Assembly: GCF_000400485.1 (NCBI RefSeq)
Contig: NZ_ASHR01000021.1
Coordinates: forward strand, 1 to 64,000
Reading direction: 5' to 3'
Length of the DNA: 64,000 nucleotides
DNA from: Agrococcus pavilionensis RW1
GTDB lineage: Bacteria; Actinomycetota; Actinomycetes; Actinomycetales; Microbacteriaceae
A program made the translations under genes and the position numbers. The notes beneath the pieces were generated by a model, which saw only the letters and a list, made by a program, of their open reading frames with translations, made no database searches and had not been told where the DNA came from. Below are positions 44,428 through 48,009 of this stretch, in pieces (within the stretch, counting starts at the first letter, position 1; every line of letters starts with the position of its first letter).

Positions 44428-44676
44428 TCAGCGATCGGCGGGCTGCTCCTCCTGCCACGGCGCCGCTGCGACGCGCTGGACCAGCAGCCCGCCCGGGCAC
44501 CAGCCGCGGATCGCGCCGACGACGAGCAGCGCTGCGCCGAGCGCCGTCGCGCTCGCGAGCAGCGGCTGGTCGAGGCTGTCGAGCGCGAAGGCCGCGAGCA
44601 GCAGGCCGATGCCGGCCTGCGTCACCCGCTCCGCCGTGCCCGATGCGCAGCGGATAGGACGACCGCGCGCGCTCAT
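44428..44676 (-). CDS. DUF2892-type small membrane protein (YgaP-like)
   Basis: 82 aa from ATG 44676, which overlaps the thioredoxin stop by four bases (ATGA). Two membrane helices (about 19-37 and 42-60) surround a DSLDQPLLASATALGA loop, as in the YgaP C-terminal domain DUF2892, with the Cys of GWCPGG conserved after helix 2. Such domains accompany rhodaneses. It is the last gene of a sulfur-handling operon. Confidence 0.8.
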   Translation of the reverse strand: MSARGRPIRCASGTAERVTQAGIGLLLAAFALDSLDQPLLASATALGAALLVVGAIRGWCPGGLLVQRVAAAPWQEEQPADR

Positions 44677-45050
44677 GCCGAGGGGCTGCCGGAGTCCTGC
44701 TCGGCGAGCTGCCGCCGCACGTCGTCCATGTCGAGCCCGCGCACGCCGGCGATGAGCTGCTCGAGCTGCTCCGGGGGCAGTGCGCCCGGCTGCGAGAACA
44801 CCCGGATGCCGTCGCGGAACGCCATGAGGGTCGGGATCGAGGTGATGCCGAACGCCGCGGCGAGCTGCTGCTGATCCTCGGTGTCGACCTTGCCGAAGAC
44901 GATGTCGGGGTGCTGCTCGGACGTGCGCTCGAAGGTGGGGGCGAACATCCGGCACGGGCCGCACCACGCGGCCCAGAAGTCGAGCAGCACGATGCCGTCT
45001 GCCGCGACGGTCGGCTCGAGGGTATCGATGGTGATGTCTCGGGTGGTCAT
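44673..45050 (-). CDS. trxA: Thioredoxin
   Basis: 125 aa from ATG 45050 with GGAAGGATC upstream. A standard thioredoxin fold: VLLDFWAAWCGPCRMFAPTFE (~21-41) with redox Cys30 and Cys33, VDTEDQQQLAAAFGITSIPTLMAFRDG (~55-81) with the cis-Pro. The C-terminal helix extends ~20 residues beyond a usual thioredoxin. In this operon, after TauE and the MBL-rhodanese, it could reduce protein persulfides. The gap to TauE is 40 bases. Confidence 0.9.
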   Translation of the reverse strand: MTTRDITIDTLEPTVAADGIVLLDFWAAWCGPCRMFAPTFERTSEQHPDIVFGKVDTEDQQQLAAAFGITSIPTLMAFRDGIRVFSQPGALPPEQLEQLIAGVRGLDMDDVRRQLAEQDSGSPSA

Positions 45051-45090: not shown

Positions 45091-45870
45091 TCAGGGGAGC
45101 GGCAGCAGCACGAGCAGCTGCAGCTGCTGCCAGGTGATGCCTGCCGCGACGAGCAGGACGAGCGCGGCGAACGCGCGCCGCAGCACGCGGTCGGGGATGC
45201 GTCCGGTGAGCGCGGTCCCGATGGCGGAGCCGACGACGGCGAGCGCCGTGAACGGCAGGACGAGCTGCCATGGGACGTCGGCGAGCGCGGGCTGGGCGAC
45301 GAGGCCGACGAGGGTCTGCATGGCGATCACCATGAGCGAGGTGCCGACCGCGGCGGCCATCGGCAGTCCCGCGAGCACGGCGAGCGCCGGCACGATGAGG
45401 AAGCCGCCACCGGCACCGACGAGACCCGCGAGGACGCCGACCGCGGCGCCCTGCAGCAGGACGAGCGCGGTGCGCGGCCGGGGCCTCGCGGTCCCGCCGG
45501 CGCTCGCTCGGCGCCGGAGCATCGCGATGGCGGCCGCGACCATCGTCGCGGCGAGCAGCAGCATGAGCAGCGTCGACGGCAGCCGAGCCCCGACGAGGCC
45601 GCCCAGCACGGCGCCGACGGCTCCAGCGGCGCCGAAGAGGCCGCCGATCCGCCATCGCACGCGCCCGGCGCGCGCGTGCTGGACGAAGCTCACCGCGCTC
45701 GTCACGCCGACGACGAGGAGCGAGGAGGCGATCGCCGCTCGCGGTTCGACGCCGGCGACGGTCGTGAGGATCGGCACGGTGAGGATGGCGCCGCCGCCGC
45801 CGAGCAGGCCCAGGCTGACGCCCACGAGGAGCGCCAGCCCGAGCGTCGCGCCGTCGGCGGCGACTGTCAT
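45091..45870 (-). CDS. TauE/SafE sulfite exporter family protein
   Basis: 259 aa from ATG 45870, which overlaps the MBL-rhodanese stop by four bases. Membrane protein of seven to eight helices: GLALLVGVSLGLLGGGGAILTVPIL (~10-34) and AAVGVLAGLVGAGGGFLIVPALAVLAGLPMAAAVGTSLMVIA (~155-195) are the duplicated GGGG and GAGGGF repeats of the TauE/SafE family. It probably exports sulfite or thiosulfate, or takes up thiosulfate. Staphylococcal cst operons have the same pairing of TauE with a CstB-type enzyme. Confidence 0.9.
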   Translation of the reverse strand: MTVAADGATLGLALLVGVSLGLLGGGGAILTVPILTTVAGVEPRAAIASSLLVVGVTSAVSFVQHARAGRVRWRIGGLFGAAGAVGAVLGGLVGARLPSTLLMLLLAATMVAAAIAMLRRRASAGGTARPRPRTALVLLQGAAVGVLAGLVGAGGGFLIVPALAVLAGLPMAAAVGTSLMVIAMQTLVGLVAQPALADVPWQLVLPFTALAVVGSAIGTALTGRIPDRVLRRAFAALVLLVAAGITWQQLQLLVLLPLP

Positions 45871-47307: not shown

Positions 47308-47421
47308 TCAGCAGCGGCAGCGGTCGGCGGCCGGGACGCCCGCGAGGGCCTCCTCGACGTGCTGGCCGCAGCCGGCCCACGTCGGCTTGCCGCAGCGGTC
47401 GCAAGTGATGCGTGCGCACAT
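47308..47421 (-). CDS. Cysteine-rich micropeptide (CGKxTWAGCGQHV family), copy 2
   Basis: 37 aa from ATG 47421. The sequence holds MCARITCDRCGKPTWAGCG, then QHVEEALAGVPAADRCRC: six cysteines, including CxxC and a terminal CxC. It is a close paralogue of the peptide at 47448-47633. I recall short peptides with TCxxCGKxTWxGCGxHV in many bacteria, with no known function; it may bind zinc or copper, or carry persulfide. It lies between the other micropeptide and the CstB-like gene, so it is likely co-expressed under the CsoR/CstR-type regulator. Confidence 0.75.
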   Translation of the reverse strand: MCARITCDRCGKPTWAGCGQHVEEALAGVPAADRCRC

Positions 47422-47447
47422 GGTCGTGTCCTCTTCTCGGTCGTGGG

Positions 47448-47633
47448 TCAGCGCCCGAACAGACGGGCGAGGAATCCGGGTCGGGCGCCGCGCGCCTCGG
47501 CGATCTCGCTCTCGGAGTGCTTGCCGTTGCACCACTGCCCGGCAGGCACGCCGCGGCGCACCTGCTGCACGTGCTGGCCGCAGCCCGCCCAGGTGGTCTT
47601 GCCGCACACGCGGCAGGTCGTCGCTCTGCACAT
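47448..47633 (-). CDS. Cysteine-rich micropeptide (CGKxTWAGCGQHV family), copy 1
   Basis: 61 aa from ATG 47633 with AGGAGG 6 bases upstream. MCRATTCRVCGKTTWAGCG is followed by QHVQQVRRGVPAGQWC, then a basic tail NGKHSESEIAEARGARPGFLARLFGR that could fold as an amphipathic membrane-binding helix. It is the first gene downstream of the tandem operators, on the minus strand, so it should be strongly controlled by the CsoR-family regulator. The core is shared with the 37-aa peptide after it. Confidence 0.78.
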   Translation of the reverse strand: MCRATTCRVCGKTTWAGCGQHVQQVRRGVPAGQWCNGKHSESEIAEARGARPGFLARLFGR

Positions 47634-47658: not shown

Positions 47659-47699
47659 GATACCCCCGGGGGTATCAAAACTATACCCCAGGGGGTATC
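47659..47699. promoter_or_regulatory. Tandem CsoR/CstR-type operators
   Basis: A perfect palindrome GATACCCCCGGGGGTATC (47659-47676) and a second near-palindrome ATACCCCAGGGGGTATC (47683-47699) lie between the divergent micropeptide/cst-like genes and the regulator gene. ATACCCC...GGGGTAT is the known core of CsoR and CstR sites. Each site is placed to block one of the two promoters, giving repression and autorepression. Confidence 0.85.
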
Positions 47700-47724: not shown

Positions 47725-48009
47725 ATGAGCACGACCCCCGACTTCCCCGCCGCGCACGATCCCGAGGCCAAGCGGAAGGTCGTCAACAGGCTGCGTCGCG
47801 CCCACGGCCAGCTCGCCGCCGTGATCGCAGCCGTCGAGGACGACGCGCACTGCCGCGACATCGTGCAGCAGCTCTCCGCCGTCTCGAAGGCAGTCGACCG
47901 CGCCGGCTTCCTCGTCGTCGCGGGCGCCCTCCGGGAGTGCCTCGCCGACGAGCCCGAGGGCGGCGAGCGCGTCGACGAGCTCGAGAGACTCTTCCTCTCG
48001 CTCGCGTGA
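47725..48009 (+). CDS. cstR: CsoR-family regulator, CstR (persulfide-sensor) type
   Basis: 94 aa from ATG 47725 (CCAGGAGG 5 bases upstream). An all-helical DUF156/CsoR protein: KRKVVNRLRRAHGQLAAVIAAVEDDAHCRDIVQQLSAV... The copper ligand set in CsoR is Cys-His-Cys; here it is Cys43, Ala68 and Cys72, with the same spacing (25 and 4) but no His. That pattern fits CstR, which senses persulfides through the two Cys rather than Cu(I). It is divergent from genes for persulfide oxidation, TauE and thioredoxin, which supports that assignment. The symbol is by analogy. Confidence 0.85.
   Translation: MSTTPDFPAAHDPEAKRKVVNRLRRAHGQLAAVIAAVEDDAHCRDIVQQLSAVSKAVDRAGFLVVAGALRECLADEPEGGERVDELERLFLSLA

Follow-up and report, generated by a model that had tools for sequence, protein, structure and literature searches.

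A conserved family of cysteine-rich micropeptides as a probable target of CstR-type persulfide repressors in Actinomycetota

Two adjacent short open reading frames of Agrococcus pavilionensis RW1, here called pepA and pepB, are, as judged by comparison with their relatives, real and conserved, and represent a family of cysteine-rich micropeptides recurring in Actinomycetota. As far as regulation alone is concerned, these peptides very probably belong to a persulfide regulon of the CstR type. The operon type and its regulator are already known; what appears to be new, in that our text searches did not find it, is the peptide family and its role as a frequent, sometimes solitary target of CstR. 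Searches of the literature text, mostly limited to abstract starts and with most subscription papers outside their scope, turned up no publication that describes peptides of this kind in persulfide systems, and a search with the core letters WAGCG returned only seemingly unrelated topics (titles and abstract starts). Persulfide homeostasis is known through its enzymes and sensors, which are joined here by a small-protein family as an operator target, and proteins under about 60 amino acids can escape notice in otherwise well-described regulons.

The pepA-pepB locus and its relatives

The window, that is, the whole 64,000-nucleotide stretch of A. pavilionensis DNA that was analyzed, contains the features listed in table 1. 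A sequence-only reading had proposed two paralogous micropeptides at 47308-47633; the two reading frames were borne out, both on the minus strand, and so was their common CGKxTWAGCGQHV core. Its count of four to six cysteines is to be corrected to five (pepB) and six (pepA). pepA translates as MCARITCDRCGKPTWAGCGQHVEEALAGVPAADRCRC (37 aa), whereas the longer pepB ends in a C-terminal tail, GFLARLFGR, and the ATG of each is preceded by an AGGA/GGAG-type sequence. The minus-strand order is pepB, pepA, dioxygenase-rhodanese, TauE, thioredoxin, YgaP-like protein, and NhaA, with 26 bp separating the two peptide genes, 25 bp separating pepA from the dioxygenase gene, and a 4-bp overlap between the latter and tauE. 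The peptides are thus located, as had been claimed, between the operators (47660-47698) and the dioxygenase-rhodanese gene, both operators sitting in the gap that separates pepB from the divergent regulator gene. Scanning the complete assembly (2.88 Mb, 50 contigs) with ATACCCYNNRGGGTAT returned these two operators upstream of pepB and no other site. In an alignment led by pepB, the best named match was from Agrococcus lahaulensis (98% identical).

Table 1. Features of the pepA-pepB locus (positions in the window)
Feature	Position	Strand	Remarks
YgaP-like small membrane protein	44428-44676	-	Pfam score 21.8, below the cut-off of 25.3; start chosen by hand
Thioredoxin	44673-45050	-	Pfam, NCBIfam
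TauE/SafE sulfite exporter family protein	45091-45870	-	Pfam
Persulfide dioxygenase-like metallo-beta-lactamase fused with two rhodanese stretches, 471 aa	45867-47282	-	Pfam
pepA, 37-aa short-form micropeptide	47308-47421	-	Cys 2, 7, 10, 18, 35, 37; His 21
pepB, 61-aa long-form micropeptide	47448-47633	-	Cys 2, 7, 10, 18, 35; His 21, 39
Operator ATACCCCCGGGGGTAT	47660-47675		Perfect ATACCN6GGTAT palindrome
Operator ATACCCCAGGGGGTAT	47683-47698		Perfect ATACCN6GGTAT palindrome
CstR-type repressor	47725-48009	+	PF02583; Cys43, Ala68, Cys72

Family matches were present in 93 of the 199 genomes of the same bacterial family (E-value at or below 0.01) and, across the phylum Actinomycetota, in no fewer than 48 of 396 genomes, the latter count being a lower bound because at most 16 candidates per genome were scored in the phylum scan. 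A contig scan of GTDB species confirmed at least 582 related loci (582 of 591 stretches among the matches listed). The earlier suggestion that such peptides recur in many bacteria therefore stands for Actinomycetota, the extent of the survey, to which two virus contigs may be added. Plasmid records with a match, 84 in number, all carry actinobacterial genus names.

By profile, 252 peptides were gathered from the fetched loci. Cys2 is found in 208 of the 209 unique peptides of at least 36 amino acids, an MC start that is partly forced by a start choice favoring a codon followed by Cys. Among these 208 members, the ligand spacing M-C-x4-C-x2-C-x7-C-x2-H-x13-C is exact in 206 and the two others miss one residue within the first CxxC, while all 208 carry an extra Cys or His one to four residues past the last Cys. 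Conservation extends to Gly17 and Gly19 (100%), Trp15 (99%), Thr14 (93%), Lys12 (91%), and Val29 (90%), calculated from 205 of the 252 peptides preselected for five ligands, in which only non-ligand columns are independent. The chosen start is an ATG in 245 of 251 peptides, a Shine-Dalgarno-like sequence accompanies 213 of these 251 starts, and pN/pS amounts to 0.14 (single-change codons, 53 close pairs). These start codons, Shine-Dalgarno-like sequences, pN/pS value, and conserved residues together indicate translated proteins under selection; chance reading frames are excluded by the occurrence in close to half of the family genomes, the exact ligand spacing, and the pN/pS value. The 208 members fall into 56 short and 152 long forms, a GF[FL]xRLFGR-type tail being found in 122 long forms and in no short one. 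Both forms occur at the same locus in 21/80, 15/60, and 0/40 loci of the three samples described below (S1, S2, and S3, respectively). Three matches in the family scan contain an inner stop and are damaged copies.

The family passes no Pfam or NCBIfam cut-off and is often without a listed gene: pepA and pepB gave only subthreshold matches in Pfam and no match in NCBIfam, and a sequence search of the PDB with the peptides yielded no credible relative. On plasmid pC1a (L338) the gene table has no entry over the peptide, which lies near a regulator, rhodanese, DsrE, and TauE, and on pCM2U-F1 (L339) a peptide without a listed gene lies near a regulator, rhodanese, and FAD oxidoreductase; the peptide of pREL1 likewise has no listed gene, the plasmid gene tables being incomplete and some other plasmid records listing a hypothetical protein at the peptide. 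Among 50,697 phage records one matched the family. In two of three IMG/VR contigs a short-form peptide stands beside phage genes, at L115:7095-7205 (GP88, ribonucleotide reductase, and 2OG-Fe(II) oxygenase) and at L114:5209-5319 (GP88), in both cases with no CstR-type operator upstream. It would be noteworthy if phages carried a peptide of the persulfide regulon.

Operators, regulators, and sulfur-gene neighborhoods

We compared three samples of loci: S1, the best 80 of the at least 582 loci of the GTDB scan, which is biased toward pepB; S2, 60 regions from 136 places listed in the scan of family genomes, mostly of the higher ranks; and S3, the 40 places fetched out of 55 that the phylum scan listed (of the rest, five were already covered and ten were left unfetched). 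S1 and S2 overlap in some genomes and their counts were kept separate; 40 regions taken at round coordinates in S2 and S3 genomes served as controls. The samples include four near-identical loci with peptide and regulator (L084, L085, L086, and L087); they come from four different genera of actinobacteria, one lying on a plasmid, and their near-identity suggests that either a persulfide cluster was transferred recently or the assemblies are at fault.

At least one sulfur gene, defined as a CstR-like regulator, FAD disulfide reductase-rhodanese, persulfide dioxygenase, or rhodanese gene, was present within 3 kb in 60/80 (S1), 37/60 (S2), and 21/40 (S3) loci, against 0/40 controls. A rhodanese domain is common to the queries for dioxygenase, FAD reductase, and rhodanese, and counts per gene therefore overlap; the one FAD representative checked with Pfam shows Pyr_redox_2, dimerization, and rhodanese domains, and the small-rhodanese label denotes a query match without Pfam confirmation. 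Gene order varies widely among loci, so that the sulfur link is not due to one inherited block. An operator with at most one mismatch was found within 300 bp upstream of the peptide in 54/80, 37/60, and 15/40 loci, compared with 10/1280 control windows. This count also takes the first bases of the reading frame and all copies per locus; an earlier one, with a looser gap, gave 47/80, 37/60, and 10/40 and 19/1320 control windows. Either mark or both were present in 72/80, 53/60, and 26/40 loci, and where no sulfur gene was nearby an operator still occurred in 12/20, 16/23, and 5/19. Around the S2 and S3 loci without sulfur genes, Pfam detected no family in more than 3 of 76 or more than 3 of 62 ORFs (138 of the 146 chosen ORFs were scanned, eight being left out mainly for length). 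The link to sulfur genes proposed by the sequence-only reading thus recurs in other genomes, and the persulfide-operon setting has strong support and extends well beyond the Agrococcus locus in neighborhoods, operators, regulator residue class, and co-occurrence in genomes.

Across the bacterial family, ATACCCCNNGGGGTAT was found in 69 of the 199 genomes, a backward-read control pattern giving zero in every genome row. The peptide family is a frequent target of this persulfide-repressor operator: among the 75 perfect sites listed (the row counts total 140), 33, at 27 promoters, lie upstream of a peptide, the start of which is 26-100 bp from the far edge of the site, and the other 42 do not. 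In L307, L309, and L314, which belong to the same genus, a CstR-type operator occurs at a locus that encodes CstR and thioredoxin and no peptide, pointing to thioredoxin as another member of the regulon. In L215, L225, L228, L229, L236, and L238 the operator overlaps the ATG of the peptide, which suggests leaderless transcripts or transcripts with a very short leader.

Neither operator nor sulfur gene was detected at 14 of the 40 phylum loci (S3). Four of these 14 (L207, L217, L239, and L241) have another palindrome, WTGTCCGKACAW, no more than 150 bp ahead of the peptide; it was absent from S1, S2, and the control regions. At these loci a different regulator has perhaps taken over. The 14 loci lacking both marks and the four with another palindrome indicate that the family extends beyond a single regulon.

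The nature of the regulator is best judged from its residues. Copper-sensing CsoR proteins have a Cys-His-Cys site, the His of which CstR lacks. The regulator divergent from pepB, a member of the CsoR/DUF156 fold family (E-value 8.3e-23, 81 bits), has its two cysteines 29 residues apart and an alanine in place of the copper-site histidine. Adjacent to peptides we identified 102 regulators (some loci recur), of which two are incomplete and were not scored; at the aligned positions, all 100 others read Cys-(A/G/S/T/N)-Cys. Lower-scoring, non-adjacent homologs in the same family are Cys-His-Cys in 16/16 cases and were found by the same query at E-values at or below 2e-11, indicating that the query does not select against copper types. 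Remote high-scoring regulators were fetched from 14 genomes having S2 operator loci without a sulfur gene (13 with the N6 site and one, G129, with a shorter 15-bp form) and from two others. All 16 are Cys-Ala-Cys, 15 have an FAD reductase-rhodanese or dioxygenase gene as a neighbor, and an operator is present in 14 of the 16 stretches. Some peptides, judging from these genomes, stand alone under an operator with CstR encoded elsewhere. A high-scoring CstR is present in 71 of 91 peptide genomes and absent from 20, compared with 8 of 108 other genomes having one, in counts that ignore relatedness.

Subfamilies of the CsoR family are described in PMC10318464, the available part of which does not give the residues. 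In Streptomyces coelicolor, according to the part of PMC7533328 available, a two-cysteine regulator (Cys37 and Cys66) represses dioxygenase, rhodanese, and sulfite-transporter genes through two copies of ATACCn6GGTAT, and its binding is lowered by polysulfide. Copper CsoR and RicR operators resemble this site (same part of PMC7533328); the operator alone therefore does not decide between CstR and a copper sensor, and the regulator residues do. The same reservation applies to the CstR assignment at the Agrococcus locus insofar as it draws on the two perfect sites, which were read from sequence and are similar to those of copper CsoR.

Candidate functions and known systems

AlphaFold2 models of pepA (pLDDT 86, pTM 0.46) and pepB (pLDDT 80, pTM 0.53) predict strands at residues 3-6 and 13-16 and a helix from residue 19 or 22, that is, a beta-beta-alpha core, with the CxxC between the strands and the CxxH at the start of the helix, an arrangement that would correspond to the layout of a treble-clef zinc site. 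From this predicted core and the ligand pattern, zinc binding appears plausible. Copper binding finds no support in the adjacent regulators, and persulfide binding may be surmised from the gene context. Foldseek and VIA-align searches with the peptide models gave no match, PDB structures included, at an E-value of at most 0.001 or a Z of at least 2. The tail of pepB (pLDDT 55-59, no helix assigned) can be compared with the MinD C-terminus KKGFLKRLFGG (read from NC_000913), its helical moment being 0.64 versus 0.46 in shuffled sequences (p 0.23); for long-form tails generally, helical moments are not distinct from shuffles (median p 0.24). The peptides do not fit two known classes. Metallothioneins have a very high Cys density and no aromatic residues; here Cys makes up only 6 residues of the 37 in pepA and 5 of the 61 in pepB, Trp15 is almost always kept, and neither Pfam nor NCBIfam gave a metallothionein match. 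Nor did either peptide match known sulfur carriers or sulfurtransferases (rhodanese, TusA) above the Pfam or NCBIfam cut-offs.

Our tentative preference, for the statement as a whole, is that the micropeptides are induced through CstR, owe their structure to zinc, and act as acceptors or buffers of sulfane sulfur. As to regulation, for which the sequence evidence is good, the two-cysteine CstR would bind ATACCN6GGTAT just upstream of the peptide gene or its operon, and persulfides or polysulfides would modify a CstR cysteine, causing the repressor to leave the operator. In the induced peptide, Cys7-x2-Cys10 and Cys18-x2-His21 are predicted to hold one zinc in the treble-clef-type beta-beta-alpha core. 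Cys2, Cys35, and the late Cys/His, one to four residues further on, might then form a reactive site accepting sulfane sulfur, which might be buffered or passed on to the rhodanese, dioxygenase, and FAD disulfide reductase-rhodanese under the same control; both of these steps we propose with modest confidence. Methionine aminopeptidase is expected to remove an initiator Met that precedes Cys, in which case Cys2 would be N-terminal. The long form may reside at the membrane through its MinD-like tail and the short form in the cytosol.

Other roles have to be weighed against this one. A copper regulon under CsoR or RicR, with copper-binding peptides, would account for the resemblance of the operators; this is very unlikely, and we reject it because the copper His occurs in none of the 100 adjacent and none of the 16 remote regulators while all 16 non-adjacent homologs have it, and the neighbors are sulfur genes. 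Even less credible is that the reading frames are leader peptides whose translation reports on cysteine supply. They are short, Cys-rich, and, in Agrococcus, first in the operon, and Cys-rich attenuator uORFs do exist in mycobacteria; however, many copies are last in their operon or alone, and the near-invariance of non-Cys positions such as Trp15, Gly17, and Gly19 led us to reject this reading.

Two further proposals are unlikely rather than rejected. Persulfide might strip zinc (or copper) from thiolates, and the CstR-induced peptides might re-bind the metal like a metallothionein. Cys-rich small proteins bind Zn or Cu, and the family keeps seven Cys/His ligand positions. In the available part of PMC9952342, moreover, a structural zinc site, that of PerR, is described as a target of modification by sulfane sulfur. 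A plain metal buffer, however, would hardly contain only five or six Cys and would have no use for an invariant Trp15, Gly17, and Gly19, and no copper-type regulator occurs among the scorable adjacent ones. Alternatively, and with likewise little probability, the peptides might be adaptors or regulators, small zinc-finger modules that bind and tune one of the regulon's enzymes, which the long form would carry to the membrane. The zinc-finger-like core, a separate tail confined to long forms, and the several gene arrangements in which the peptide adjoins the dioxygenase, FAD reductase, or CstR gene agree with this, as do the one-domain zinc-finger micro-proteins with stress phenotypes of Haloferax (available parts of PMC6562870 and PMC10716476). 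Yet no one partner gene recurs at every locus, and the residues placed outside the putative zinc site (Cys2, Cys35, and the late Cys/His) are kept just as strictly. Given the inducer, we place a sulfane-sulfur acceptor or buffer before the metal buffer and the adaptor.

Since the family is under a reactive-sulfur repressor, actinobacteria probably make these peptides against toxic persulfide sulfur. A bolder version of the acceptor reading, which we regard as doubtful, would make them dedicated sulfane-sulfur carriers: a zinc scaffold would expose the N-terminal Cys near Cys35 and the late Cys/His, and the MinD-tailed form would load at the membrane and pass its sulfur to the short form and to the dioxygenase, reductase, and rhodanese of the regulon. 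If this were true, actinobacteria would manage persulfide by a two-peptide relay that is often absent from annotation.

Several described systems can be compared with the peptide loci. The CstR of Staphylococcus aureus, as Luebke and colleagues are said to have described in 2014, is a two-cysteine persulfide sensor of the CsoR family set over sulfurtransferase, dioxygenase, and TauE genes; we know of no such peptide in its regulon, from which the actinobacterial one differs in operon content and in its stand-alone peptide targets. The mycobacterial metallothionein MymT is also small, Cys-rich, and controlled by a CsoR-family protein, RicR, within a copper regulon; unlike in that case, the regulators adjacent to our peptides lack the copper His, and the peptides have an invariant Trp and His. 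A further parallel is the sulfane-sulfur circuit of S. coelicolor, consisting of the CsoR-like SCO0620, the persulfide dioxygenase (PDO) SCO0618, a rhodanese, and a sulfite transporter, which shares with the Agrococcus locus the kind of regulator, the two ATACCn6GGTAT operators, and the dioxygenase-rhodanese and TauE-type genes; the available part of PMC7533328 describes it as a set of four genes, no micropeptide among them, suggesting that the persulfide pathway can run without the peptide. Finally, the zinc-finger micro-proteins of Haloferax volcanii resemble the present family in having fewer than 70 amino acids and a single zinc-finger-like core and in being often overlooked, but, according to the available parts of PMC6562870 and PMC10716476, they are built on two C(P)XCG motifs, whereas the actinobacterial peptides combine CxxC and CxxH with three further ligands and are found in persulfide regulons.
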